A stretch of 41,391 bases of DNA from the IMG/VR virus record IMGVR_UViG_3300027972_000026, positions 1 to 41,391 of that record; one strand, written 5' to 3'. Below the pieces are notes generated by a model, which saw only the letters and a list, made by a program, of their open reading frames with translations, did not search any database and was not told the DNA's origin. Position numbers and translations under genes: made by a program. Below are positions 4,015 through 25,626 of the stretch, in pieces. The stretch is from a virus. Each line of letters begins with the position of its first letter. The stretch's first letter is position 1.

Positions 4015-4417
4015 ATCTTATAGAGAGTTGCGAAAATTATTAACATTTGAAGAACGTTTCAAATATCTTAGTTTAAAAGGCCATGTGGGAGAATCGATAT
4101 TTGGCTTTGATCGATATTTAAATCAAAATCTTTATAGATCTAGAGAATGGAAACAAACTAGATATAAGGTAATTGAAAGGGACCAAGCTTGTGATCTTGG
4201 GATAGCTGGTTATGAGATTGAAGTCGAGCTTCTTATTCATCATATGAATCCAATTAGTCTTGATGATATAGAATCAGGAAATGAAGACATTTTTGATCCT
4301 GAGTTTCTTATTTGTACGACTTATAACACTCATCGTGCCATTCATTTTGGTGATGAATCTCTACTTCCAAAACCGCCTATAGTTCGTCGTCCTAATGACA
4401 CTATTCCTTGGCGTTAA
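3998..4417 (+). CDS. HNH endonuclease of the packaging module
   Basis: The 139-residue protein has an HNH metal-dependent nuclease core: SREWKQTRYKVIERDQACDL, then a strand ending LLIHHMNPI (His-His with Asn), then YNTHRAIHFGDE (second Asn and His). The C-terminus RRPNDTIPWR is typical of a phage HNH family near terminase genes. In such phages the HNH protein helps the large terminase cut concatemers at cos or pac sites. ATG 3998 was chosen because GGAGGAGG lies nine bases upstream; the frame opens earlier only inside the preceding gene. Unusually, the large terminase lies more than 8 kb downstream. Confidence 0.8.
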   Translation: MMLRIRSYRELRKLLTFEERFKYLSLKGHVGESIFGFDRYLNQNLYRSREWKQTRYKVIERDQACDLGIAGYEIEVELLIHHMNPISLDDIESGNEDIFDPEFLICTTYNTHRAIHFGDESLLPKPPIVRRPNDTIPWR

Positions 4418-4437
4418 ATGTTAAAGGAGAATCATAT

Positions 4438-4842
4438 ATGAATAGTATATTAAATACTGTTAAACTAGCATTAGGTGTCGAGGCGGATTATAATGGTTTT
4501 GATACAAATATTCTTCTCGACATTAATAGTGCTATATTTAATTTAAATCAACTCGGTGTTGGTCCCGTCGGAGGGTTTATTGTAAAAGGTGAAGGCGAGA
4601 ATTGGGAAGATCTTTTAGGAGATACGCTTCAATTCGAATTAGCTAAAACTTATATTCTTGCCAAAATTCGTTTATCTTTTGATCCTCCAAGCAATTCTTT
4701 TTTAGTCGATGCAATACAGAAACAAATTGCAGAATACGAATGGCGGTTAATGGTTCAAGGAGAATCACCATCTCATGTTTCTGAGAGTATGGTATTTAGT
4801 CGTAGTCAGAGTACTGAATCAGAAGAAGAAATACCGAATTAG
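4438..4842 (+). CDS. Head-tail connector (gp6-like adaptor)
   Basis: The 134-residue protein starts with a helical segment (LNTVKLALGVEADYNGFDTNIL) followed by LLDINSAIFNLNQLGVGP, the layout of phage head-tail connectors that form a ring beneath the portal. The rest (AKTYILAKIRLSFDPP, then a charged helix) also fits. ATG 4438 is preceded by AAAGGAGA; an upstream TTG in frame would lie inside the HNH gene. Connector genes normally follow the capsid gene, so finding one ahead of the large terminase is unusual. Confidence 0.65.
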   Translation: MNSILNTVKLALGVEADYNGFDTNILLDINSAIFNLNQLGVGPVGGFIVKGEGENWEDLLGDTLQFELAKTYILAKIRLSFDPPSNSFLVDAIQKQIAEYEWRLMVQGESPSHVSESMVFSRSQSTESEEEIPN

Positions 4843-4877
4843 AAGAGAAACAATAATATTTTGGGAGGGAGTCTAAA

Positions 4878-5141
4878 ATGATAGACAAATTTTCTAGTTT
4901 TATAGTAGGATTAACTACTTCTGGGGTTGATGCATTTGCAATTACTCCAAGTAATAGTCATGATCTTAGTTATGCGACACGCGGAATTTATGTTGGTGTT
5001 TCTGGTAGTCTTAAGGTAGATATGGTTGGGGGTAGTACGATTATTTTTACTAATTTAGTAGCTGGAGTTATTCATCCTATTCGAGCTAAGAGAATATATG
5101 AGACTGGAACAACTGCGACTGGTATTATAGGAGTATCTTAA
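4878..5141 (+). CDS. Head spike-base protein (Rcc01079-like)
   Basis: The 87-residue beta protein contains the family pattern ITPSNSHDL-SYATRGIYVGVSG-LKVDMVGGSTIIFTNL-GVIHPIRAKRIYETGTTAT. This matches phage spike-base proteins resembling RCAP_Rcc01079 of the Rhodobacter gene transfer agent, small trimeric proteins that hold a spike on the capsid vertex. Its stop overlaps the next start (TAATG), so the spike-base and the LamG-phosphoesterase protein are translationally coupled. That supports the downstream protein being the spike it carries. Ribosome binding site GGGAGG is at 4863-4868. Confidence 0.75.
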   Translation: MIDKFSSFIVGLTTSGVDAFAITPSNSHDLSYATRGIYVGVSGSLKVDMVGGSTIIFTNLVAGVIHPIRAKRIYETGTTATGIIGVS

Positions 5142-6799
5142 TGTCTGGGATAGGAATAGGAATAGGAATAGGAATAGGTTCGATGGTGATGGGGGGAACA
5201 ACTATTCTTGAGAACGTGGAACTTAGTCATATTCGAACTGTTGAAACAAATGAGGAGTTTTCTCCCTGGTATCTTAGTGGGGGGATCCCTGCTGAGAATT
5301 GCATCGCAGCCTATGCAGCGGTTGGTGCAGCCAACCTGGAGGAAAGCTATGTGAACCTGGCCAATCCGGGAACATATAATCTCGTCAATGGTGTGGCTCC
5401 TACCTGGGCAGCGGAAACTGGCTGGACGTTTAATGGAACACAATACAAGGAAACCGGAATAACCCCCTCAAGCAATGGGGAGACAAATGGCTGGAGCATG
5501 TTTCTGCGGTTTTCCGGTTTCATCGGATCCACTGGCTATACGGGTATGTGTGCTTTAGATGGTACATATTTCTCTATTGCCCCAAACAGGGGAGAAACTA
5601 GACGGTACATCAATGGTACTGGGATACTTTCTAATCCTGGAGGAATGGAAGCCGGTGTTATTGGGATGGCAGGTGGGACACCTTATCTCAATGGCGTTTC
5701 GGATGGAGCAATAAATCTCGGAACGAATACCAAGAGCATGATATATATTGGATGTACTGGTCTAGGCCCCCAGCTTCCAGTAATTGGGAATATTCAGGCA
5801 TTGGTAATTTACGACTCAGTCTTGACAGAAGTACAAGCGCTAGCGATCTCCAACGCTATGGCGGCTCTCCCTTTTGATGTGACCATCCCGGCATATCCTG
5901 CTCCGATTGTTGGAGATGGTGAATTTACTGTTGTATTTATGACGGACTCGCACGTGGGTACATGGATGACGGAAAGTGACATCCAGACAACATTCGATTA
6001 CCTTAGAGACAAGCAGACCGGATTGAATTTACAAGCAGTGCTCTATGGGGGCGACTATGCGGACAGTGTTGATCACCCAGATGATCGGGCAGCTTTCGTG
6101 TCTGCAATTGGGAGTATCGAAGACATACCTCATCTAGTAGCGATTGGGAATCATGACTACGATTACAATAATGGCCCACGAAACTCTATAGTGCATAACG
6201 GTGTGTTTGGACAAAGTTACTTCACTGGAAAGAATTGGTGGTCTGGGGGTTTCTTCGAAACCGGACATTCAGAGAATTCCTATATGCTTCTGAGTATAGA
6301 TGGCATTGACTATATCTTTATTGCTCTGGAATTATTTCCTCGCCAAGCGGTGCTTGAATGGGCAAATGCCTTGCTAACCGCCCATGCAGCAAAAAAAGCG
6401 ATCATCATTACACACGCCTACGAGTACACCGATGGGACGCCATATTCTGAGGGCGATTCTTTCGGTCCAGATGGGGGGCAGGAAGGCATTACCGATGCCG
6501 ATTATCATTGGGGTAATGAAATGTGGGATGAGCTTATCAAACTGCACGATAATGTGATCCTTGTACATTCTGGCCACGTTAATCCTTGCGCTCGTCATGT
6601 AGCAAATTCAGACGGTGGACAATCTGTAAACCAAGTGCTTGCTAACTATCAAGGGGATTGGGGAGATCATTTCTTTAATACCCTAATCCGTTATTTGATC
6701 TTCAACCCGACGACTGAAACGATTAGAGTGGAATCGTTTTCGGCGGTTTACCGACAGTGGTATTCCTCCCCAGATCACAAGTTTACCTTGACGTATTAG
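5141..6799 (+). CDS. LamG-like + metallophosphoesterase virion spike protein
   Basis: The 552-residue, three-part protein is likely carried on the spike base encoded just upstream. Residues 3-13 are Gly-Ile repeats. Residues about 50-250 look like a LamG/concanavalin-like lectin fold (GWTFNGTQYKETGI, WSMFLRFSGF, ALVIYDSVLTEVQALAISNA). Residues about 260-540 form a calcineurin-like metallophosphoesterase with the motif series in order: D269-S-H271, G304-D305, G336-N337-H338-D339, H425 in ITHAYEY, and H476-S-G-H479. All metal ligands appear present, so it should be active. Likely substrates are phosphodiesters or phosphomonoesters of cell-surface polymers such as teichoic acid or phosphorylated polysaccharide; this is inference. 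The enzyme part is visibly richer in G and C than neighbouring genes, suggesting acquisition. Confidence 0.85.
   Translation: MSGIGIGIGIGIGSMVMGGTTILENVELSHIRTVETNEEFSPWYLSGGIPAENCIAAYAAVGAANLEESYVNLANPGTYNLVNGVAPTWAAETGWTFNGTQYKETGITPSSNGETNGWSMFLRFSGFIGSTGYTGMCALDGTYFSIAPNRGETRRYINGTGILSNPGGMEAGVIGMAGGTPYLNGVSDGAINLGTNTKSMIYIGCTGLGPQLPVIGNIQALVIYDSVLTEVQALAISNAMAALPFDVTIPAYPAPIVGDGEFTVVFMTDSHVGTWMTESDIQTTFDYLRDKQTGLNLQAVLYGGDYADSVDHPDDRAAFVSAIGSIEDIPHLVAIGNHDYDYNNGPRNSIVHNGVFGQSYFTGKNWWSGGFFETGHSENSYMLLSIDGIDYIFIALELFPRQAVLEWANALLTAHAAKKAIIITHAYEYTDGTPYSEGDSFGPDGGQEGITDADYHWGNEMWDELIKLHDNVILVHSGHVNPCARHVANSDGGQSVNQVLANYQGDWGDHFFNTLIRYLIFNPTTETIRVESFSAVYRQWYSSPDHKFTLTY
5147..5179 (+). repeat. 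In-frame hexanucleotide repeat coding Gly-Ile
   Basis: Five consecutive ATAGGA/ATAGGT units (5150-5179), preceded by GGG, encode alternating Ile-Gly at the N-terminus of the LamG-phosphoesterase protein. Copy-number change by slippage would lengthen or shorten the linker without changing frame. Confidence 0.9.
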
Positions 6800-6847
6800 G
6801 AAACTAACTGAGGAGGCTTGTTTAATAATATTTTGGAGGATGTCTGA

Positions 6848-8935
6848 ATGACTCAACTAATTTGGGATGATACCAGTACGCGTTTTTTTGAAACGGGTGT
6901 TGATAGATGTGTTTTGTATGTTATGGATCAAAATGGCGAGTATCCTGTTGGAATACCATGGAATGGTTTAACTGGTGTCACAGAAACCCCATCTGGTGCT
7001 GAGCCATCTCCATTATATGGCGATAACATGAAGTATCTAACACTCGTATCAGCTGAGGATTTTACTGCTACATTAGAAGCTTATACCTATCCAGAGGAAT
7101 TTGACGAATGTGATGGGTCTAATGAGATTATGGTTGATACAGGTGGCCGAGTTTCCCAACAACCTCGTAAGAAATTTGGTTTAGTGTACCGAACCAAATT
7201 AGGTAACGATGTTGCTGGCGATGCGCTTGGTTATAAATTGCATTTACTTTATGGGTGTTTAGCATCTCCATCTGAGAAAGCATATGCTACGATTAACGAT
7301 TCCCCAGAAGCTATCACGTTTAGTTGGGAGATTTCCACCACTCCAATAAATGTTACTGGTTTTCAACCAACTTCTTTAATTACAATTGACTCAACTAAAT
7401 GTATACCAGCAAATTTAACTGCTCTTGAGAATCAGTTATTTGGCGCTACTGGAATAACACCAAATCTTCCATTACCTGATGGAGTAAAAGCAACACTGGA
7501 AGTGGGCGGTGATTGGTATGTTGATAGCGAGAATGGGAATGACAATAATAGTGGCACAACACCCCTTAAATCCTTCGCTACCATCACTAAACTCTTGACT
7601 GTATGGTCAGCCGGTGAGACCATTGGTGTAGCCAAGGGAAGCACATTCTATGAGACGCTAACCTATCCTGGTAATGATAGTATAGCTATAGCCTATGGCA
7701 CAGGGGCAGACCCGATTATAGAGTGTCGGGATGTGGCTTCAGCATTATCGTTCTCTAAAACTGGTGGTCGCACATTCGTGTATGAAATAGCTCTATCTCC
7801 CGATCTTGGTCCATTCGGATCGTGGAATAGTATTTGGGAGGACGAGATTCGACTAGTACGCGTAACATCAGTGGCAAACTGTGATGCAACCCCAGGAAGT
7901 TATTTCCCGTCTAGCGATACTGTTGCTCCGATTACGATGTATGTTCATGCATCTGACGATAGCAATCCTGGCACTAATGGAAAAGTCTACAAGTATTCAA
8001 AACGACTATGTTCAGTAGAGGGTTATTTATACAGTCGTTGTGGGGCAAATGGTATTGTCGGTATTGGCAGTCTTAGTGAGAGCGGTCCATTCCGGACGGG
8101 TCCGTTTACGATTCTATACGGATGTAAAGCGATTTTCGGAAATAAACATAACTTTTATCATCGAAGAGGATCATGGCTTGAGAATTGCGAAGCTATCGAT
8201 GGCTATCACACTGGTGGATCGTGGACGCTCTTTGTTTATAACGATGATACTCCTTCCGGAGATGGTATTACTTATAAGAATTGTATCGCTCGTCACACAT
8301 CAGTCGCGCTGCCAATAGGATCTGCGGGATTTTATGGTCACCACAATATTAGTGGTAGCTTTGGTCTGGTCCACTTTGATCATTGCATTGTTGAAAAGTG
8401 TCAGACTGCTATCTCTGGGCAGGATGCAGAGATTCTTTGCGATTACTGCGAGGCGATCTCATGTGACTTTTCCTTCGCGGTCGTATCGACAGATATTCAC
8501 ACCTTTAACCATTGCAAGATGACCTCCTCGTCTTTTAGTGGACGATTTGTTAGCATGAACGTGGCCAATGCCACAGCTGTAATCAACTCGGCAGATGTTA
8601 GTCTCACTGGGAACGCGGCAATTGCGGTGGCCATACAAGCGAATAATCCTACGATTACTATTGATGGTTTCAAGTTTGTCGGACGATCAGTGGGTGGGTG
8701 GCAGGAATTTCTTTACTGCAACGGGTATACCGGAGGAACAGTCAATATCACGAATGGCGATTTTGACAGTCCCTATGCTTACCTTATCTATGATGTAGCT
8801 GGTCCCGTTATTACATCGGATTACAACAGATTCAGACAAAACGCGCAGGTGTTTAAGATAGCATCAGTCGATTATGGTACAGTAGCTGCTTACCAGTTAG
8901 CCACCGGACAGGATGCGCACAGTACTATCGGGTAG
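6848..8935 (+). CDS. Major-tail-protein domain fused to beta-helix (copy 1)
   Basis: Residues 1 to about 218 are a full actinophage-type major tail (tube) protein: IWDDTSTRFFETGVDR at the start, then SGAEPSPLYGDN, TYPEEFDECDG, QQPRKKFGLVYRTKLGND, and ASPSEKAYATINDSPEAITF. At exactly the point where the stand-alone tube protein (24915-25580) ends, a new domain begins with WYVDSENGNDNNSGT, the opening of right-handed parallel beta-helix (DUF1565-type) proteins. It runs to residue 695 as Asn/Gly/Cys-rich coils. The end, YQLATGQDAHSTIG, is the usual C-terminal beta-helix motif, truncated relative to copy 2. It probably assembles into tail-tube rings and displays the beta-helix as an adhesin or depolymerase. 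No catalytic residues can be assigned with confidence. Confidence 0.85.
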   Translation: MTQLIWDDTSTRFFETGVDRCVLYVMDQNGEYPVGIPWNGLTGVTETPSGAEPSPLYGDNMKYLTLVSAEDFTATLEAYTYPEEFDECDGSNEIMVDTGGRVSQQPRKKFGLVYRTKLGNDVAGDALGYKLHLLYGCLASPSEKAYATINDSPEAITFSWEISTTPINVTGFQPTSLITIDSTKCIPANLTALENQLFGATGITPNLPLPDGVKATLEVGGDWYVDSENGNDNNSGTTPLKSFATITKLLTVWSAGETIGVAKGSTFYETLTYPGNDSIAIAYGTGADPIIECRDVASALSFSKTGGRTFVYEIALSPDLGPFGSWNSIWEDEIRLVRVTSVANCDATPGSYFPSSDTVAPITMYVHASDDSNPGTNGKVYKYSKRLCSVEGYLYSRCGANGIVGIGSLSESGPFRTGPFTILYGCKAIFGNKHNFYHRRGSWLENCEAIDGYHTGGSWTLFVYNDDTPSGDGITYKNCIARHTSVALPIGSAGFYGHHNISGSFGLVHFDHCIVEKCQTAISGQDAEILCDYCEAISCDFSFAVVSTDIHTFNHCKMTSSSFSGRFVSMNVANATAVINSADVSLTGNAAIAVAIQANNPTITIDGFKFVGRSVGGWQEFLYCNGYTGGTVNITNGDFDSPYAYLIYDVAGPVITSDYNRFRQNAQVFKIASVDYGTVAAYQLATGQDAHSTIG

Positions 8936-8961
8936 ATTATGATATTTGGAGGGTCCATAGG

Positions 8962-11151
8962 ATGACTCAATTGGTTTGGGACGATACTGGTAAACGCTTT
9001 TATGAGACTGGTGTTGATAGATGTGTTTTATATTTAATGGAGGGTAATGGGGAGTATCCATTAGGAATACCCTGGAATGGTTTGGTTTCTCTTACAGAAA
9101 GTCCATCGGGTGCTGAGCCAACTCCATTATATGGAGACAATGTAAAATATTTAACACTTAGTTCAATAGAACAATTTGCGGCTACATTAGAAGCTTATAC
9201 CTATCCAGAGGAATTTGATGAATGTGATGGTTCTAAAGAAATTATGGTTGACACAGGTGGCCGAGTTTCTCAGCAACCTCGTAAGAAATTTGGACTTGTT
9301 TACAGGACTAAGTTAGGAAATGATGTTGCCGGACAAGATCTTGGTTATAAATTACATTTACTTTATGGGTGTCTAGCTTCTCCATCTGAGAAGGCATATG
9401 CTACGATTAATGATTCTCCGGAAGCTATCACGTTTAGTTGGGAGATTTCCACCACTCCAATAAATGTCACTGGTTTTCAACCAACTTCTTTAATCACAAT
9501 TGATTCGACTCAATGCTCGGTTCAAGGTCTTTCTCGACTTGAGGATCAATTATTTGGCTCTGCTGGAATAACAGCTAATCTCCCATTGCCAGATGCAGTA
9601 AAAACAATATTCGAAACGGCCCATAATTGGTATGTTGACAGTCTGGACGGAAATGACAACAAGGATGGGCGCTCTGAGGCTACTGCTTGGAAGACGTCGG
9701 CAAAGGTTAACGCATCTACATTCCTCCCAGAAGATTACATATTATTTAAGTGCGGGGGAAGGTTTAGGGGACAAGTATTGAGTGTGCCATCATCTGGCAC
9801 GGCTGGCAAGCCAATCACGTTCGCCACATATGGCATGGGAGCTAATCCCATCCTTGACCCGACAACTCGCTTTACCAATTTTGTTCTCCACGCCGGTGCT
9901 GTATGGAAGAGAACAGATGTTGGGAATGATCCTACACAGGTGTGGGAAGATGAAATCAGATTGATTTACAAAACATCCGTAGCTACTATGGTTTCCGGTA
10001 GTTGGTGTAAAACCGGCGGCGAGGTATATGTTCAGTGTACGGACGATGGCAATCCGAACACAGAGCACGTTGTTGAGTATGCGATCGGTGCAAATAGCAT
10101 AACCATCAGAATGAACGGGAAATCACATCTAGTATTTGACGGCATTGATGCTTATCGGTCAAATTACACGGCGTACAATACCGACCTTCCCGGTTCATCT
10201 GATATAGTTATTCGTAATAGTGTATCTTCCTGGACTGGCGGTAGATCATTTCTAGTTGGAGTATCAGTTATTGGCACTTCAGTCTATCCAAGTGACGTAA
10301 TCGTTAAGGATTGTGTAGCCCATGATGATCTAGACGAGTCTTACTGGATAGGTCATGGAACACGTCTTTTCATTGAGCACAATGAGGCCTATAATAGTGG
10401 TAAGGATACCTTTCCTAATGGAAAACAGTATCCAGAAGCAACGCATTTCCCAGGAGGCATACTAATCTCCGCTGAGGCAGTTGATTGTGTGGTTCGCAGG
10501 AACTATATTCATGATAACTACAAGTTGGCTGCTATCCTGGATGAAAGATCGCTCGGCCTAAAGGGGACACGAACAATCATAGAGCAAAACTTGGTGGATA
10601 CGTCGATTGGTGCTATGCCAGCTATTCAGATCGAAGGAATAAATACCACGGTACGCAATAACTTGATCAGATCGGGAAGTGGATCTCCCATATTATTGTC
10701 GAACGGACCGACCATACCAGAGATTTACAACAACACGCTTGTTAGTCCGAGTGGAGGACTCCATTCCATTGAGACAGGTGGCCAACCTGGCGCTCGCATC
10801 AAGAACAACATCCTTATCAGGGCTGGTGCTCTGAATAGATACATCAGTGTATCTGCCACGGCACAACCGGGAACGGTCATAAACCGCAACTTGTATTTCG
10901 GTGCGGCAACAGGCAGATGGTTCTGGGGGCCGAATGAATACACCAGTCTTGCCGCATGGCAAGCGGCATCCGGTCAGGACGCTAACAGCCTTAATAGCGA
11001 TCCAGTATTCGTTGTTCCCAATACTGACCTCCACCTACAAGTCACATCGCCCTGCATTGGGGCGGGTGAGGCCGGGCTGGTAACTGACGATTATGACGGG
11101 ATAAATAGGGGAGTGGCCATAGACATAGGAGCATATGAGTATGCTCCATAA
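8962..11151 (+). CDS. Major-tail-protein domain fused to beta-helix (copy 2)
   Basis: The architecture matches copy 1 with a different display domain. Residues 1 to about 218 are a tail-tube protein nearly identical to copy 1, including DNA-level identity near 9421-9492. From residue 220 (HNWYVDSLDGNDNKDG) a right-handed parallel beta-helix runs to the end, with regular coils such as DCVVRRNYIHDN, TTVRNNLIRSG and ARIKNNILIRAG. The C-terminus is complete: WQAASGQDANSLNSDPVF, then the closing DIGAYEY. This fold is common in phage tailspikes and polysaccharide lyases. Copies 1 and 2 share little sequence after residue 220, implying that display domains are swapped on a fixed tube anchor. Ribosome binding site GGAGGG lies at 8949-8954. 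Confidence 0.85.
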   Translation: MTQLVWDDTGKRFYETGVDRCVLYLMEGNGEYPLGIPWNGLVSLTESPSGAEPTPLYGDNVKYLTLSSIEQFAATLEAYTYPEEFDECDGSKEIMVDTGGRVSQQPRKKFGLVYRTKLGNDVAGQDLGYKLHLLYGCLASPSEKAYATINDSPEAITFSWEISTTPINVTGFQPTSLITIDSTQCSVQGLSRLEDQLFGSAGITANLPLPDAVKTIFETAHNWYVDSLDGNDNKDGRSEATAWKTSAKVNASTFLPEDYILFKCGGRFRGQVLSVPSSGTAGKPITFATYGMGANPILDPTTRFTNFVLHAGAVWKRTDVGNDPTQVWEDEIRLIYKTSVATMVSGSWCKTGGEVYVQCTDDGNPNTEHVVEYAIGANSITIRMNGKSHLVFDGIDAYRSNYTAYNTDLPGSSDIVIRNSVSSWTGGRSFLVGVSVIGTSVYPSDVIVKDCVAHDDLDESYWIGHGTRLFIEHNEAYNSGKDTFPNGKQYPEATHFPGGILISAEAVDCVVRRNYIHDNYKLAAILDERSLGLKGTRTIIEQNLVDTSIGAMPAIQIEGINTTVRNNLIRSGSGSPILLSNGPTIPEIYNNTLVSPSGGLHSIETGGQPGARIKNNILIRAGALNRYISVSATAQPGTVINRNLYFGAATGRWFWGPNEYTSLAAWQAASGQDANSLNSDPVFVVPNTDLHLQVTSPCIGAGEAGLVTDDYDGINRGVAIDIGAYEYAP

Positions 11152-11190
11152 CAAGCAGAGAACTTACTGAATACTATAAATATCAAGACA

Positions 11191-11243
11191 AAGATTCCCA
11201 TTCGACGATAGAAAGATATATAATAGTGTTGGATGGGAATCTT
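11191..11243 (+). repeat. Intergenic hairpin after the beta-helix genes
   Basis: Positions 11191-11201 pair perfectly with 11233-11243, and pairing continues inward to 11207/11227 with G-U pairs, giving about 17 bp. No T-run follows. A second pairing of GATAGAA (11207-11213) with TTCTATC (11242-11248) would overlap the first stem. It may protect the 3' end of the fibre transcript. Confidence 0.6.
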
Positions 11244-11336
11244 CTATCATCAAAATTTCAACAGTGATGGTGGCCCAATAGCCACTTCGCAGAATGGCAA
11301 CTGGCTGGATACGATACGAATTCTACGCATATCTAA
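11242..11336 (+). pseudogene. Frameshifted remnant of a beta-helix C-terminus
   Basis: In the gap after copy 2, one frame reads FYHQNFNSDGGPIAT (11242-11286). After a one-base backward shift, another reads FAEWQLAGYDTNSTHI followed by TAA (11286-11336). The second piece matches the C-terminal motif of the two neighbouring proteins (YQLATGQDAHSTIG and WQAASGQDANSLNSDP) and ends at the equivalent point to copy 1. It looks like what remains of a third or replaced beta-helix domain. The match is short, so it is an inference, but motif order and stop position agree. Confidence 0.55.
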
Positions 11337-11374
11337 AATAGAGACACTAACTAGTGTTGGAGATTGGAGGAATT

Positions 11375-11767
11375 ATGGAAAATAATAAATTGGAACATGT
11401 TGGCGTTCTCGGAATGAAATGGGGACGTCGACGTGGGGATAGTGATAGTGGTGGATCTAGAAAATCTGGTGGAAAGAATAAAACCACTATAAGAACAAGC
11501 GAAGATTTTAAAGCTGCTGCCAAGCTGAGAGAAAAGCGCATCGCTGAAATGAGTAATGAAGATATTTCCAAAGTGAACAAACGTATGGATCTTGAGAAAA
11601 GATATAAGGATCTTAATCCATCTAGAGTTGCTAAAGGTGCCAAAGCGGTTAAAAGTGTATTAGGCACCGTTGGTCAAGTAGCTGCTGGAGCTGGTGCTAT
11701 GCTTGCTCTTATTGGAATAGGTAACACTCTTATGAAAAAAATAGCTGCTTATGGCTTGAAGAAGTAA
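11375..11767 (+). CDS. GMKWG-motif phage protein 1
   Basis: The 130-residue protein has the N-terminal signature LEHVGVLGMKWGRRRG at residues 6-21. A low-complexity Ser/Gly/Lys linker follows, then a charged helical segment (MSNEDISKVNKRMDLEKRYKDLN) that recurs in phage proteins with this signature. A hydrophobic C-terminal helix (GQVAAGAGAMLALIGIG) comes last. GMKWG-type proteins are encoded in head/packaging modules of many phages; no function is established to my knowledge. Possibilities are targeting to the capsid interior or an ejected membrane-active protein. ATG 11375 follows TTGGAGG; the upstream in-frame TTG is disfavoured. It is the first of three such genes before the large terminase. 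Confidence 0.75.
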   Translation: MENNKLEHVGVLGMKWGRRRGDSDSGGSRKSGGKNKTTIRTSEDFKAAAKLREKRIAEMSNEDISKVNKRMDLEKRYKDLNPSRVAKGAKAVKSVLGTVGQVAAGAGAMLALIGIGNTLMKKIAAYGLKK

Positions 11768-11789: not shown

Positions 11790-12305
11790 ATGCAAAATAA
11801 TTCTAATTCATTATCTCATGTTGGCGTTCTAGGAATGCGTTGGGGTCGTCGAAGTGGTCAATTATATCGTAAAAACACAATTACTACTGCTAAAGGTCAA
11901 AGAAATTTAGATAAAGAAGAACTTAATAAATTACAAAATAAAAAAGGTTTTCAAACTGGTCGTGGAAAGAAATTAGATGCAGAGAAAATTAAGATTTTGA
12001 AAGAAAGAGTATCTAGTGTAAAGGGCGAAAAACTCAGTTATTATGAACGAGATGCCCAAATGCGATCTCGCGTCAAAAAGATCAGTCTTGCTGTAACAGC
12101 ATTATGGATAACTGGTCCATTTCTTTATAGCGTAGCACAAGTTGTTCCTCATAATGCTAGAGTACTTGGAAATGCGTATAAAAGTCAAAGAAGATATGAG
12201 AAGTACGGGGGCTTCGATCCAAAGAAAGTAGTAAATGGTCGTTGGCGTGATGTGGCAAAATCTGATTATGTAGATGTTGGAAGAAAACTTTTAGGAGGTG
12301 GTTAA
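11790..12305 (+). CDS. GMKWG-motif phage protein 2
   Basis: The 171-residue protein has the signature LSHVGVLGMRWGRRSG at residues 8-23 (Lys to Arg variant). A very basic region rich in Lys and Asn follows, then one probable membrane helix (KISLAVTALWITGPFLYSVAQ) and a basic, Tyr-containing tail (SQRRYEKYGGFDPKKVV). Beyond the first 25 residues it shares no obvious sequence with its two neighbours, so only the tag is common. It follows protein 1 by 22 bases and its end contains the AGGAGG of protein 3, so translation is probably coupled. Expected net charge is strongly positive, compatible with DNA contact inside a head. Confidence 0.7.
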   Translation: MQNNSNSLSHVGVLGMRWGRRSGQLYRKNTITTAKGQRNLDKEELNKLQNKKGFQTGRGKKLDAEKIKILKERVSSVKGEKLSYYERDAQMRSRVKKISLAVTALWITGPFLYSVAQVVPHNARVLGNAYKSQRRYEKYGGFDPKKVVNGRWRDVAKSDYVDVGRKLLGGG

Positions 12306-12306
12306 A

Positions 12307-12702
12307 ATGAATAATGATCATTTGGAACATGTCGGCGTTATCGGAATGAAATGGGGTCGTCGTAAGGGATCTTCATCAACGTCTTCTAATAGATCTGGTG
12401 GTGGAGATCGTAGAAAACTAAGCTTTGCTAAAGATGCTGATGGTAGAAAAGTTAATAGATTATTCGGAAAAAGAAATAGAGCCAAGATATTTAAAACGCT
12501 TATTTATAATAAAGATTGGAATAAAGAATGGCAAAAGGACCCTCTTGTCAAACTCGGAAAATCCTCGGTAAAAAAAGCAGTAGCTAAGTTTGAGAAGAAA
12601 CAATATAAAGATGCCACTAAAGATATTCAAAGATTGATGAAAGATAAAAAATTTAAAGAGGCAAAAGATCTTCAAGCTGAACTAGATTATTTATATTCTT
12701 AA
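12307..12702 (+). CDS. GMKWG-motif phage protein 3
   Basis: The 131-residue protein has the signature LEHVGVIGMKWGRRKG at residues 6-21. A Ser-rich linker (SSSTSSNRSGGG) follows, then a Lys-rich helical body that ends in a repeated helix-turn pattern (KDATKDIQRLMKD, FKEAKDLQAELDYL). There is no membrane segment. ATG 12307 was chosen because TTAGGAGG lies eight bases upstream, inside the end of the preceding gene; an in-frame GTG at 12298 falls on that site. The gene ends 24 bases before the large terminase, and the four genes 11375-14472 look like one operon. Confidence 0.7.
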   Translation: MNNDHLEHVGVIGMKWGRRKGSSSTSSNRSGGGDRRKLSFAKDADGRKVNRLFGKRNRAKIFKTLIYNKDWNKEWQKDPLVKLGKSSVKKAVAKFEKKQYKDATKDIQRLMKDKKFKEAKDLQAELDYLYS

Positions 12703-14484: not shown

Positions 14485-15186
14485 TTGATTAATGAACTAA
14501 AACATTATGGTGTTCTCGGAATGAAATGGGGTATCCGAAATAATAGAGAAAGTAGTGGTAAAGGATATTCTGTTGATAAAGATGGTCGGATATCAATTGA
14601 AAAAGGTTTTATTCTTCAACGGGTATATAATAAAAATAAGCAGGATAGTGGAGAGTCTGGAAGTAATTATTTTTCCTTTACTAAAAAGGATAATGGTACT
14701 TATTTAGCAATGTTGGGAGCAGGAGCTCATTCTAAGATTGGTTTTATTAAGAAACTTGCTTCTGAAACTATGCTTCGGTCGTCTGCAAAAGAACCTTTAA
14801 AATCTCCTAGTAGGGAAGAGGCTTTTAATATCTTAAATGAATCACTTAAAAATGCTGGTAAAAAAGGTTTTTCTGGAACTTTTAAAGATTCTAGAGCTCG
14901 AAACTGGTATGTAGAACAAAACGCCCGCATAGTTAAATCAAGAAAGAGTATTGAATTTCAAGAATATAGGAAGCTTTTACTTAAAAAAGGTTTTAATATT
15001 CTTCTAGATGAAGCAGATGCAGGATTTTTATCTGAAATGCCAATTCTTGTTTTAGATGGTGGACGGTCTCTCAAAAAAATAAGTATAAGTGATTTCTCAC
15101 CAGAAACTCTCAATGCCGCAAGAAAACGTTTATTAACGCAAGATATGAATAGAAGTATGGAAGAAATTTCAAAAGCTGGTTATTAA
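14485..15186 (+). CDS. GMKWG-motif phage protein 4, possible ART-like domain
   Basis: The 233-residue protein starts at TTG 14485, set by AGGAGGA seven bases upstream; the nearest ATG is out of frame. The signature LKHYGVLGMKWGIRNN (residues 5-20) has the common HYGVLGMKWG form. The following domain (KGFILQRVYN, then NYFSFTKK, then YRKLLLKKGFNILLDEADAGFLSEMPILVLD) resembles phage domains attached to this tag. Its Arg, aromatic-Ser-Phe and LDEADAG-PILVLD arrangement is faintly like ADP-ribosyltransferase folds. I cannot identify the catalytic Glu, so activity is not claimed. It differs from the other three tagged proteins in carrying a folded globular domain, and could be a virion-packaged effector. 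Confidence 0.7.
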   Translation: MINELKHYGVLGMKWGIRNNRESSGKGYSVDKDGRISIEKGFILQRVYNKNKQDSGESGSNYFSFTKKDNGTYLAMLGAGAHSKIGFIKKLASETMLRSSAKEPLKSPSREEAFNILNESLKNAGKKGFSGTFKDSRARNWYVEQNARIVKSRKSIEFQEYRKLLLKKGFNILLDEADAGFLSEMPILVLDGGRSLKKISISDFSPETLNAARKRLLTQDMNRSMEEISKAGY

Positions 15187-16600: not shown

Positions 16601-16966
16601 ATGGCAGACCTTATTGATAGACTCACCCATGATAGTGAATATATGACACCGGCACGTCCAGGAATAGCTGTTCATGCTTTTGCGTCTGATTATATTATGT
16701 ATGCAGCAGGCACTCGCACAAATACAGAAATTATCCAGGCATATGACTTGCAGGGAGATGAATTAGCCCAAGCTATTTTGATAAAAACTGTACTAGATGG
16801 GAAAACAACAGCAATTAATAAGATGATCTACTCATTGAAAGTGCAGAGTGTGGCGCTTCTTCTTGGGGCTAAGCCTGACAGCAGCTATCCAAATCCGAAT
16901 GTCTACTTCGATATCAATGGTAACGTCAACAAAACACGTGTGGCAGCTGACCTAGAGATAACCTAA
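16601..16966 (+). CDS. Conserved phage protein, 121 aa, unknown role
   Basis: A start-proximal segment (DRLTHDSEYMTPARPGIAVH) is followed by a helical core (NTEIIQAYDLQGDELAQAIL, then KMIYSLKVQSVALLL) and a short beta end (VNKTRVAADLEI). The DLQGDE-Q motif and location beside fibre genes recall small proteins of actinophage-like structural modules whose function I do not know. AGGAGG is well placed. The stop overlaps the start of the long fibre gene (TAATG), so the two are coupled. It could be a fibre chaperone or a small baseplate component. Confidence 0.6.
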   Translation: MADLIDRLTHDSEYMTPARPGIAVHAFASDYIMYAAGTRTNTEIIQAYDLQGDELAQAILIKTVLDGKTTAINKMIYSLKVQSVALLLGAKPDSSYPNPNVYFDINGNVNKTRVAADLEIT

Positions 16967-19900
16967 TGGGCATAAAAGTATCTCGGACACGCTTTGCTGC
17001 AAGAACTACTACCGGCACACAAGATATTACTGCCAGTCTTGATGGGCTTACTCCTAAAGCAGCATTGTTTTTATATTCGTATGCCACAGCAGATGGTACG
17101 CCCGCGAATGGTCTTGCTAGATTCATTGGAGCGACTGATGGCAGTACCCATGCAGTGCGACGCTACGGTGATGCAGACAATCTTGATACCACATCAGTTG
17201 GTGCTGGTGCTGACAACACCATACCTATTATTTTGACAGATCCGTCAGGAAACCTATTAGCAGAAGGTGCTTTCTCTGCCTGGATCACAAACGGCATAAC
17301 AATAAGTTGGACTGTCACTACTGGTACAGCTATATTGATAGATGTTATCTTTTTTGCCGGAAGTGACTTGAGTGCAGACGTCTCTATCACGACACTGACA
17401 AATGCAGTAGACACAGTTCACGATGTAACAAGTGTTGGCTTTGAGCCCGACGACCTGATTGCTTTTGTGGCGGCAGGTACTGGAATGGCGTTAGGTTTCA
17501 CGCATAGTAATCGTGCTAGTACTTATACGCAGAATAGCTTGTATCAGAGAGGGCGTAATGGACAAGCTACTTCTCAGAATATGGCTATTCTACGTAGTAG
17601 TTATGGGTGTCTAGTACCAGCTGGATCTACGTCATCAGATGCAAGCTCTAAATTAGAATTTGGGAGTTTTGACTCTAGTGGTTTTTCAGTAACAACAAGG
17701 CTTTCTGCACCTGGCTCAGGATCAACCTTAGTGGTATTAGCACTTAGGTATGGGACGAGTCCAGTGGTGGAGTCTACTAATTATATATATTCAACACCTA
17801 CGGCAACAGGTAGCAACACGGATGCTAATGCGGGATTTACACCTCAGTTTGTTATGTATGCAGCATCAATTATGGAAGCTACCGATACGTTTTATACAGA
17901 CTCTTTAGCAGGCTCGCATGCAACCATAACTATAGATGCCAGTGGACAGTGTTGCACGGCATACACATCCGAGGACAACCAGGGTACGACAGACACCCAG
18001 TCTTTATCAGACGACCAAGCAGTAAACTTGCCATTAGATAGTGGGGCTGCCGGATTAGCGGCGACGTTTACTGAATTTACAAGTTCTGGTGTAACACTAA
18101 ATTGGTCAGACGTTGAGGCGAACGCTAAACTTTGGCTTGGATTTGCCATAGGTACAGATAGTGCCGCCCCGCAAAATATTGATGAAAGTGTAGTCCTTGC
18201 TAGAAATTGTGGGATTGCAATTGGATCTGATAGTAATCTTCTGGATTCGATATTATTAAGTAATTATTTAACTATAACCGCTGAAGGTAATAAAGTTGGT
18301 GGAGCAATTGAGGAATCAATCAATCTCGGATTAATCCTCCGAGTAACCCAACCAATGCCTCAAAATATAGAAGAAAGTGTCACATTAGTAATACATTCCG
18401 GAATTAGTAACGATAGTCAGATAATTGCCCTGAATGAAATTAGTTTGAATAAAGTAAATGCAGAAGGTAATGCTGATATTGCAAACGTGATTGATAGCAC
18501 ATTGCTTGGGAAATTCGAGAATATTAGTATAACGACGGATGTAAATGTTCTCGACATAACAACCCTAGCAAGATTTGATGATATTTCTTCTCTTGAAATA
18601 AGGGTTATTTCTGAATCATTTATTTTAGCACGCTTCGCAGCTCTAGCATCAGAGGGCGCTCGGCCAGAGATTGAAGAATCTGTGACACTAGCAAAATCTG
18701 CCGGACAAAGTAGTAGCGATTTAGTAAATATTTATGATTTTATAACTTTTACACATTTTATAAGTATTACTATAAGGGAAGTACCAACTATTACTGAGGT
18801 AATTACGCTTTTGCGGTTAGTCGCCCAAACTGGTGGAACTCAGACAAACGAGAATGATGTAGCAAGTCTAGTAAAATTTAGTGGATTTGCAGCATTCGAA
18901 GAGCGTGAAGGTCTTAATGAAGGTGTTAGTTTATCATATTCTCTTGGAATGGCCCTATTGCAAGAGGGTATCAGTCATGTAAGTGAAGATGTGAACGTTG
19001 GCCGATTACTTGGTATAGTGCCAAATGAACAGGGTCGAGTTAGTGATACTATATCCCTAAATCGATTGTCTAGTATAGTTTCAAATTCCCAAGAGCAAGT
19101 TCTTAATGCTATTTCTTTAAATCGACTGACTGGTATAACTTCGAATGATCAAGGTCAACTTGCCGATGCTATATCTTTAAATAGATTAACCAGTATAGCT
19201 GCAAGTGAATTACCCCTTTCAATCATTCAAAGTATTTCTTTAAATCGATTATTTGGTATAACTTCGAATGATCAAGGTCAAGTTAGTAATGCTATATCTT
19301 TAAATCGATTAGATAACGTAACCACAAGTGAATTACCTTTTTCAATCATTCAAAATGTTTCTTTAAATCGATTGGCGGGTATAAGTGGAATATCACTCTG
19401 CCAAGTTAATGATAATTTATCTTTGAGTAAGCTTATTAATATAATTATTATTGACGAAACAATTGGGCAGTATAGTGAGATTTTAACTTTAGGTCGTGGT
19501 CTTAGTATATCTGTTTTCCAAGAAGGAGTGAGCCATGTAGGGGAAACCATATCCTTAAATCGATTAAATGAAATAGCGATTAGCGAACAGAACAGGATTC
19601 ATAATAGTTTATTATTTGGTCGAACTAATGGAATAGGTCTTAATGATCAATACCAAATTCTTAGTAATTTGATATTTGCTCGATCAAGTGGGTTGGGTAT
19701 TAGTACACAGATTGCTATTGACGATGATGTTACTCTTAGTAAATTTAGTGTATTTAATACTTCTTCGCAATTGATATTGAACGAGTTACTATCATTATCA
19801 AAATTAGATAATTTGGCAATTCTTGATAGTCGATATCTGCTGGAAAATATTAATTTGCAATATAATAATGGATTGTCGTTAATTGATGGGTCAATAATTT

Positions 19901-20187
19901 TTGAAGAGATCGAACTTGGTAGAATAGACATTGTTACTCTTATAGCACTTTTATTTGCTAATAATGTTATTGGTCTTAATCAATTTAAATCTATTATAGC
20001 TGAACCACAATCTTTATATATCTATGACAACGGGGATCATGCTGTTGGAGTATTATTCCGAGACAAACGAGCCGAAGTATTATTTCGAGACAAACGAGCC
20101 GAAGTATTATTTCGAGACAAACGAGTTGAGGTATTATTCCATGATAAGCGTGCTTCCGTTTTATGGAGAGATAAAATAAGAAAATAA
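16966..20187 (+). CDS. Long repeat fibre protein, 1073 aa
   Basis: Residues 1 to about 400 hold beta-sandwich domains that look duplicated: LTPKAALFLYSYAT, GFEPDDLIAFVAAGTG and GFTPQFVMYAAS occupy equivalent places. Residues about 403-1018 are some 29 repeats of 20-21 residues with pattern I-(E/N)-(E/A)-(S/I)-(V/S)-L-(A/N)-R-(L/F)-x-x-(I), for example NAISLNRLTGITSNDQGQ. These predict an extended beta-structured shaft. Residues 1029-1073 are five short units based on VLFRDKRAE. The array is most alike at DNA level in the middle (19100-19380), a sign of recent duplication. It lacks signal peptide and membrane segments, so it is a virion fibre. Start is coupled to the previous gene. Confidence 0.75.
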   Translation: MGIKVSRTRFAARTTTGTQDITASLDGLTPKAALFLYSYATADGTPANGLARFIGATDGSTHAVRRYGDADNLDTTSVGAGADNTIPIILTDPSGNLLAEGAFSAWITNGITISWTVTTGTAILIDVIFFAGSDLSADVSITTLTNAVDTVHDVTSVGFEPDDLIAFVAAGTGMALGFTHSNRASTYTQNSLYQRGRNGQATSQNMAILRSSYGCLVPAGSTSSDASSKLEFGSFDSSGFSVTTRLSAPGSGSTLVVLALRYGTSPVVESTNYIYSTPTATGSNTDANAGFTPQFVMYAASIMEATDTFYTDSLAGSHATITIDASGQCCTAYTSEDNQGTTDTQSLSDDQAVNLPLDSGAAGLAATFTEFTSSGVTLNWSDVEANAKLWLGFAIGTDSAAPQNIDESVVLARNCGIAIGSDSNLLDSILLSNYLTITAEGNKVGGAIEESINLGLILRVTQPMPQNIEESVTLVIHSGISNDSQIIALNEISLNKVNAEGNADIANVIDSTLLGKFENISITTDVNVLDITTLARFDDISSLEIRVISESFILARFAALASEGARPEIEESVTLAKSAGQSSSDLVNIYDFITFTHFISITIREVPTITEVITLLRLVAQTGGTQTNENDVASLVKFSGFAAFEEREGLNEGVSLSYSLGMALLQEGISHVSEDVNVGRLLGIVPNEQGRVSDTISLNRLSSIVSNSQEQVLNAISLNRLTGITSNDQGQLADAISLNRLTSIAASELPLSIIQSISLNRLFGITSNDQGQVSNAISLNRLDNVTTSELPFSIIQNVSLNRLAGISGISLCQVNDNLSLSKLINIIIIDETIGQYSEILTLGRGLSISVFQEGVSHVGETISLNRLNEIAISEQNRIHNSLLFGRTNGIGLNDQYQILSNLIFARSSGLGISTQIAIDDDVTLSKFSVFNTSSQLILNELLSLSKLDNLAILDSRYLLENINLQYNNGLSLIDGSIIFEEIELGRIDIVTLIALLFANNVIGLNQFKSIIAEPQSLYIYDNGDHAVGVLFRDKRAEVLFRDKRAEVLFRDKRVEVLFHDKRASVLWRDKIRK
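19051..19380 (+). repeat. Tandem 60/63-base repeats inside the fibre gene
   Basis: Copies containing a (T)CTTTAAATCGA core recur with alternating 60- and 63-base spacing (near 19111, 19171, 19234, 19294, 19357), so the true unit is 123 bases or 41 residues. Degenerate copies extend on both sides, from about 18175 to 20020. They encode the fibre shaft. Confidence 0.85.
20050..20184 (+). repeat. Five 27-base tandem repeats at fibre C-terminus
   Basis: Units at 20050, 20077, 20104, 20131 and 20158 each encode a nine-residue VLFRDKRAE-type peptide. The first three are nearly identical and the last two diverged. They are adjacent without spacers, so this is not a CRISPR array. Confidence 0.9.
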
Positions 20188-24914: not shown

Positions 24915-25580
24915 ATGACTCGACTAGTTTGGGATGATACTGGTAAACGCTTTTATGAGACTGGTGTCGATAGGGGCGTTTTGTATGTTATGGATGGTAC
25001 TGGTGCATACCCTTTGGGAGTTCCATGGAATGGCCTAACCGCCGTCACAGAGAGTCCATCGGGTGCTGAACCAACAGCCTTGTATGCTGATAACATTAAG
25101 TACTTGACTCTTTTGTCAGCTGAGGAATTTGCGGCTACATTGGAAGCCTATACTTATCCGGAAGCCTTTGCGGAGTGTGACGGCTCTAAAGAGATTGGGG
25201 CCGGGCTAGGTGGTTGGGTTGCTCAGCAACCTCGTAAGCAATTTGGTCTAGTTTATCGGACTAAGTTGGGTAATGATGTTTCTGGGGATGCACTTGGTTA
25301 TAAACTGCATTTGCTGTACGGATGCCAGGCTTCTCCGTCTGAGAAGGCATACGCGACGATTAATGATTCCCCAGAAGCTATTACATTTAGTTGGGAGATT
25401 TCTACTACTCCCACGAATGTTACTGGTTTTCAACCGACTTCTTTGCTAATCGTTGACTCAACGCAGGCAACAGTTGCTGGTCTTGCAGCTCTTGAAGATG
25501 AGTTGTTTGGTGATTCGGGAGTTGGTGTATCAAATCTTCCACTTCCGGATGCAGTGAAGACTCTATTGCAGACTGTATAA
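24915..25580 (+). CDS. Major tail protein (tube), stand-alone copy
   Basis: The 221-residue, actinophage-type major tail protein has LVWDDTGKRFYETGVDRGVL, SGAEPTALYADN, TYPEAFAECDG, QQPRKQFGLVYRTKLGND, ASPSEKAYATINDSPEAITF, and end LPLPDAVKTLLQTV. It stacks in hexameric rings to form the tail tube. The same domain starts the proteins at 6848 and 8962; their extra domains begin exactly where this protein ends. Two stretches differ from those copies (for example EIGAGLGGWVAQQ against EIMVDTGGRVSQQ). This is probably the bulk tube subunit. A terminator follows, consistent with separate high expression of the genes before it. Confidence 0.93.
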   Translation: MTRLVWDDTGKRFYETGVDRGVLYVMDGTGAYPLGVPWNGLTAVTESPSGAEPTALYADNIKYLTLLSAEEFAATLEAYTYPEAFAECDGSKEIGAGLGGWVAQQPRKQFGLVYRTKLGNDVSGDALGYKLHLLYGCQASPSEKAYATINDSPEAITFSWEISTTPTNVTGFQPTSLLIVDSTQATVAGLAALEDELFGDSGVGVSNLPLPDAVKTLLQTV

Positions 25581-25588
25581 TTCTAAAG

Positions 25589-25626
25589 TGGAGTCTTAGA
25601 GATTCTAGGACTCCATTAATTTTTTA
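25589..25626 (+). terminator. Rho-independent terminator after the major tail gene
   Basis: A 12-bp stem (25589-25600 with 25604-25615, one G-U pair, three-base loop GAT) is followed by TTAATTTTTT. It separates the head/tube genes from the tail-assembly genes and would set their relative expression. Confidence 0.9.

Follow-up and report, generated by a model that had tools for sequence, protein, structure and literature searches.

Why would a siphovirus encode its tail tube subunit three times and lengthen two of the copies by several hundred residues? This question is raised by the IMG/VR virus record IMGVR_UViG_3300027972_000026, an uncultivated contig whose full 41,391 nt were analysed here (the window). 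Its late region is of siphovirus type, as judged by family matches or synteny with annotated phages, and includes a stand-alone major tail protein (MTP), P0003. Two further genes, P0001 (6848-8935) and P0002 (8962-11151), are intact open reading frames (ORFs) of 695 and 729 aa that join an MTP domain to a long C-terminal region (Table 1). We propose that P0001 and P0002 are probably minor components of the tail tube, each displaying a large beta-helix on the side of the tail.

Two MTP paralogs with complete anchors and long extensions

All three proteins match the 'major tail protein' family phrog_2645 over the full length of the profile, with E values of 6e-93 to 3e-95 (each below 1e-92); in the fusions the match covers the N-terminal domain. 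The MTP gene used as a DNA query against the window record finds exactly three places. A preliminary description of this DNA had reported the shared domain in the three genes, and both the domain and its coordinates are confirmed. Both fusions open with a complete MTP domain, and the part shared with P0003 ends at residue 218-219, leaving 476 residues in P0001 and 510 in P0002. The junction thus lies, as described, where the 221-aa stand-alone protein stops, although the WYVDS signature of the helix starts at residue 223 in both fusions and not at residue 220. Chance is excluded as the source of the fusion signal.

The MTP domains of the fusions (the anchors) share 75% (165/219, P0001) and 78% (172/220, P0002) identity with P0003 and 84% with each other. 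At the DNA level, ~25% of bases distinguish the anchors from the MTP gene, and ~19% distinguish one anchor from the other. Since dS between fusions and MTP is 1.4-1.6, with synonymous sites near saturation, the earlier wording that the anchors are almost identical was too strong. The Nei-Gojobori dN/dS ratios (0.11 for P0001 and 0.085 for P0002 against MTP, 0.18 for fusion against fusion) indicate strong purifying selection on the anchors and rule out pseudogene status. This is further supported by 52 invariant positions defined on 37 stand-alone MTPs with the fusions left out, of which P0001 keeps 51 and P0002 keeps 50, compared with 29-45 in the second MTP copies of other phages (n=20). Purifying selection and the retention of 50-51 of 52 invariants together suggest that the anchors are tube-competent. 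Indeed, the model of the P0001 anchor matches tail tube proteins of HFTV1, SPR, phiCD508, YSD1 and others (probability ~1.0, E 1e-3 to 1e-1, Z 8-11). MTPs of the same family often bear C-terminal domains of 65-110 aa starting from the same residue, which argues that the tube tolerates an extension at this point.

The cargo of P0002 is clearly predicted to be a right-handed beta-helix. It matches Pfam Beta_helix (PF13229), and residues 340-664 of its model align to right-handed beta-helices with Z 16-18, the fold matches including the adhesin PfbA, the HK620 tailspike and a Klebsiella phage depolymerase. Sequence similarity to the GH136 lacto-N-biosidase structures 7v6m/6kqs is confined to the first ~80 residues of the helix (phmmer, 5.7e-11). 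Beta-helix domains of this kind often bind or cut sugars. The same fold is indicated more weakly for P0001, whose C-terminal region matches phrog_16653, gives tblastn matches to the phage OC tail spike and BL94 gp048c, and in the model (pLDDT 45) aligns to the P22/9NA tailspikes and pectate lyase with Z 9-10.5. No Pfam family reaches the cut-off in the P0001 helix region, DUF1565 falling short of it at E 0.093. The proposal of a beta-helix in both long copies is thus borne out for P0002 and stays tentative for P0001. The two helices are homologous at their start but diverged (30% over 169 residues, E 1e-9), in agreement with the description that they differ. In Foldseek searches with the whole models, which are of low confidence, no PDB entry reaches E <= 0.001 with either protein, and a Pfam search of the extensions finds no carbohydrate-binding module (CBM). 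Third-position G+C (GC3) rises from 0.23-0.24 in the anchors to 0.40-0.45 in the helices, a jump that points to a mosaic join at the junction.

Duplication in the phage lineage and the accessory cassette

In a maximum-likelihood tree the two anchors cluster together (100/99) and sit within a ten-row clade (100/100) together with the window's MTP and the nearest relatives of that MTP. The extended MTPs StarLord gp18 and Camille gp19 have anchors that form a separate clade. This placement shows the duplication to be lineage-specific and independent of StarLord and Camille, and it rules out acquisition of the anchors from StarLord-like phages. A frameshift origin of the fusions is likewise rejected: they are separate in-frame genes, and the sequence 3' of mtp holds a terminator-like hairpin and then an unrelated gene. 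The gene of P0003 itself occupies the standard position, 3' of a tail-terminator-like gene.

The fusion genes lie far from this position, in a segment that is missing from the relative L247. In L247, whose terminase is 93% identical, the counterparts of 4408-4842 and 11354-11767 abut (5398-5835 / 5837-6454), which identifies 4843-11353 as an accessory cassette. Besides the fusions, a small tail fiber protein is encoded in the cassette, as is a protein that has a calcineurin-like phosphoesterase domain. The phosphoesterase gene as query found no relatives in an 8-mer-type search, which distant cases may escape. At its start (5141-5190), a short in-frame repeat encoding GIGIGIGIG stands beside the start codon and could vary in length. 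Between the cassette end and the next gene (11152-11353) there is a hairpin with a 17-bp stem, perhaps a terminator or the trace of an insertion.

Tail-side display and its alternatives

The MTP gene was duplicated in the lineage of the window phage, and the copies, carrying beta-helix modules joined at codon ~219, lie in an adhesin cassette ahead of the terminase gene. According to the reading we consider probable, some fusion subunits would, during tail assembly, replace ordinary MTP in the hexameric rings at a low ratio. Their C-termini would face outward, so that the helices project from the tail side, where they may bind, and possibly cleave, host surface glycans as adhesins or depolymerases; tail-tip proteins would then make the final host contact. 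Tail-side display is supported by the conservation of the anchors, the C-terminal domains that start at the same residue elsewhere in the family, the cassette context and codon usage. It is the best reading of the locus, as the preliminary description had it, although the novelty of the design was overclaimed.

Codon usage bears on the copy number of the fusions. GC3 is raised in the window's MTP and capsid genes and not in the fusion anchors. Similarly, across the window and its relatives, MTP1 and capsid genes tend to raised GC3, and long or second copies of MTP are closer to low-copy genes in this respect. We compared G/C-ending codons between MTP1 and paralog wherever the two have the same amino acid. 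MTP1 has more of them in each of the 10 other phages tested (P < 0.003 in every one of 12 comparisons), and the window shows the same direction (37 vs 21 and 41 vs 24, P ~0.05). This pattern fits a lower expression of the fusions, if only indirectly. We further note that L084, L085, L086, L239 and other phages with 2-3 MTPs have markedly higher third-position G+C in MTP1 and capsid than in other late genes and MTP paralogs; third-position G+C of MTP1 and capsid is possibly an indicator of copy number that can be read from sequence.

The display reading also has a published precedent. Phages of the lactococcal 936 group produce MTP-TpeX fusions of ~470-530 residues by programmed frameshift, with carbohydrate-binding modules (PMC6669499, PMC4759559). 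In PhiC0139 virions, MTP and a ~56 kDa MTP-TpeX are both present and immunogold decorates the tail (PMC4759559), and TpeX of Phi2R06A bound host strains but not the tested non-host strains (PMC6669499). Both systems combine a tube subunit with a large C-terminal extension, which in TpeX is host-binding and mixed with plain MTP in the virion. TpeX, however, depends on a +1 programmed frameshift in a single mtp gene and carries a BppA-like carbohydrate-binding module, whereas the window has separate paralogous in-frame genes whose extensions are beta-helices by Pfam and fold. By analogy, the window genes would work like TpeX, yet they are not TpeX. Outward C-terminal domains on tube subunits are also found in SPP1 gp17.1/gp17.1*, where two MTP forms are mixed 3:1 and the long form is dispensable, and in lambda gpV (PMC8718954); these are small Ig/FN3 domains, encoded by a single gene with a frameshift or present on every subunit. 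Specialised ('evolved') Hcp proteins of type VI secretion similarly add a C-terminal functional extension to a tube protein of related fold and form no clade apart from core Hcp, but they serve effector delivery and not display on a phage tail (PMC8262886). The beta-helix tailspikes and depolymerases (HK620, P22, Kp32gp38), the PfbA adhesin and GH136 lacto-N-biosidase resemble the cargo in fold and differ in their anchors.

Several points weigh against tail-side display. The fusions are known here from their genes alone, from which we infer incorporation into the virion. The codon signal is indirect, and codon history after the duplication could also yield it. The beta-helix assignment of P0001 is weak, being poorly backed by sequence, and both models are of low confidence (mean pLDDT 50 for P0002, 45 for P0001), for which reason we claim the fold class and leave atomic detail unclaimed. 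Finally, beta-helix tailspikes are usually trimers sited at the tail tip or baseplate, and such trimers are not obviously provided by a hexameric ring, though monomeric beta-helices exist.

Among the alternatives, the one that survives best, though still unlikely, gathers the fusions in a single specialised ring, a hexameric beta-helix collar at the tail tip or adjoining the head, instead of scattering them along the tube. Many phages of the family have second MTP copies with diverged cores, as expected for a ring in a special place, and two distinct fusions could occupy two rings. The window's anchors, however, lack the divergence of those second copies by their count of invariants and branch with ordinary MTPs.

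It is far less probable that the genes arose when MTP and tailspike genes recombined and persist as relics, unused in the virion. The mosaic composition at the junction and the missing cassette in L247 would fit such a history, but two intact ORFs of ~2 kb, each with a good ribosome-binding site, argue against it, as do the anchor dN/dS of 0.085-0.18 and the near-complete retention of invariants. We give equally little credence to the MTP domain as a docking or solubility module of a protein that acts outside the tube, for instance by binding or depolymerising glycans in free form or by misleading host tail-tube sensors as a decoy. Tail tube proteins are known triggers of host defence, DSR2-tube complexes are among the fold matches, and we infer rather than observe tube incorporation of the fusions. 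Such a role would nevertheless not require full conservation of the MTP invariants, and a mixed tube has been shown experimentally (PMC4759559). Least credible of all is an artefact of metagenomic assembly: the contig is uncultivated and composition shifts at the junction, but the base differences given above exceed what would confuse an assembler, two separate in-frame joins have equal spacing, and comparable MTP fusions occur in cultured phages.

Extended MTP paralogs in other phages and further features of the window

A tblastn search finds 480 MTP places across 243 cultured phage records, so MTP paralogy is ordinary; Gordonia cluster DJ genomes have indeed been noted to have 'two major tail proteins' (PMC10652937). 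Some paralogs carry large cargo. StarLord gp18 (679 aa) joins an MTP domain to ~470 aa that form a minor-tail-protein module (phrog_14138, 2e-73), and in 14 records this long form spans the greater part of the query. Camille gp19 (410 aa) has ~200 aa beyond its MTP domain. A profile search of IMG/VR with the clade of these two proteins adds five loci, each of which encodes two other MTP copies besides the extended one: L258 (814 aa, with CBM_4_9 at 2.6e-9), L254 (784 aa), L303 (584 aa), L255 (400 aa) and L259 (397 aa). Across these paralogs of other phages the extensions measure 190-606 aa. Like the window, these loci have an extra extended MTP paralog beside a plain MTP, but their genes adjoin MTP1 while those of the window lie in a distal cassette. 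Their cargo is minor-tail-protein or CBM-like, not beta-helix, and they are annotated as 'minor' or 'major tail protein'.

Outside the window itself, extensions stay within ~130 aa at the loci closest to its MTP, and none of the MTPs at 45 GTDB genome loci has more than ~70 extra residues. Helix-only queries against IMG/VR found no relatives in 8-mer or exact-pattern searches, which distant cases may escape. The DNA pattern of an MTP motif followed by a beta-helix start, an exact pattern with the same limit, matched the window's two genes and nothing else in IMG/VR. Weak helix matches in cultured phages fall on proteins of other kinds, namely BL94 gp048c, which is encoded amid head genes, and the esterase GOATification gp5. 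The search of phage genomes proposed in the preliminary description thus found, as run, MTP joined to a beta-helix in the window only: MTP paralogs with large cargo recur, and the beta-helix type is seen solely here. The accompanying claim that the design is undescribed goes too far in view of the published MTP-TpeX and the extended paralogs above, although our searches of the open-access literature turned up neither paralogous large-cargo MTPs nor a tube subunit that bears a beta-helix. The novelty lies in the beta-helix cargo and in the fact that genes duplicated in the lineage of the window phage encode it.

Two further observations concern MTP copies elsewhere. L050 (9140-10651) and L083 (9138-10663) have another, apparently independent tandem MTP duplication, in which one copy with a ~67 aa extension lies directly upstream of the plain copy. 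In L243 (Rhodococcus phage ReqiPepy6), MTP copies at 4924-5811 and 6416-7219 carry the annotation 'head protein', modelled on Lactococcus phage 1706 gp13, and their membership in phrog_2645 points to tail tube proteins.

More tentatively, and with slightly less than an even chance in our estimate, the window may be one case of a widespread undescribed strategy in which a duplicated tube gene serves as a swappable low-copy display platform. This strategy would have evolved at least twice independently and would turn the tail shaft into a host-binding or glycan-cutting surface, with carbohydrate-binding or minor-tail modules as cargo in some lineages and beta-helix adhesins or depolymerases in the window. 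The tail tube would then be a scaffold open to evolution, which gains receptor-binding or depolymerase modules in the form of separate paralogous genes as well as by frameshift. If so, host range and the degradation of surface polymers would be partly encoded along the tail shaft, 'major' and 'minor tail protein' annotations would conceal adhesins, and co-assembly with the plain subunit would constitute a natural low-copy display system. Because this layout also occurs in cultured phages of non-pathogenic hosts, such as StarLord of Arthrobacter globiformis and Camille of Microbacterium foliorum, the idea is already within reach of experiment.

Table 1. Positions of the fusions, the stand-alone MTP and other features in the window
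Feature	Position (nt)	Strand	Basis or properties
Accessory cassette with both fusions	4843-11353	+	synteny with L247
Small tail fiber protein (cassette)	4878-5141	+	phrog_12296, 9.5e-26
Protein with calcineurin-like phosphoesterase domain (cassette)	5141-6799	+	Pfam Metallophos, 1e-7
P0001 residues 1-219, MTP anchor domain	6848-7504	+	phrog_2645, 5.8e-93
P0001 residues 220-695, beta-helix-like C-terminal region	7505-8935	+	phrog_16653, 3e-8
P0002 residues 1-219, MTP anchor domain	8962-9618	+	phrog_2645, 3.4e-95
P0002 residues 220-729, predicted right-handed beta-helix	9619-11151	+	Pfam Beta_helix, 3.3e-10
Terminase	12727		family match or synteny with annotated phages
Portal	21213		family match or synteny with annotated phages
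Protease-capsid fusion	22494		family match or synteny with annotated phages
P0003, stand-alone MTP	24915-25580	+	phrog_2645, 3e-95; 221 aa
Terminator-like hairpin directly 3' of the MTP gene	25581-25625	+	14-bp stem, then T run; -19.6 kcal/mol
Tape measure	27258		family match or synteny with annotated phages
Dit	31850		family match or synteny with annotated phages
Tal-like	32797		family match or synteny with annotated phages

Elsewhere in the window, the DUF7211 motif H(V/Y)GV(L/I)GMKWG opens four proteins around the terminase (11354-11767, 11790-12305, 12298-12702 and 14485-15186). The same start motif is found on StarLord proteins near the portal (genes 10-11, L084), and it is possibly a shared targeting tag. 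The head gene region also encodes a 1073-aa protein (16966-20187) with many diverged SLNRL-type repeats and a terminal VLFRDKRAE repeat, whose relatives in L246 and L247 vary in length.

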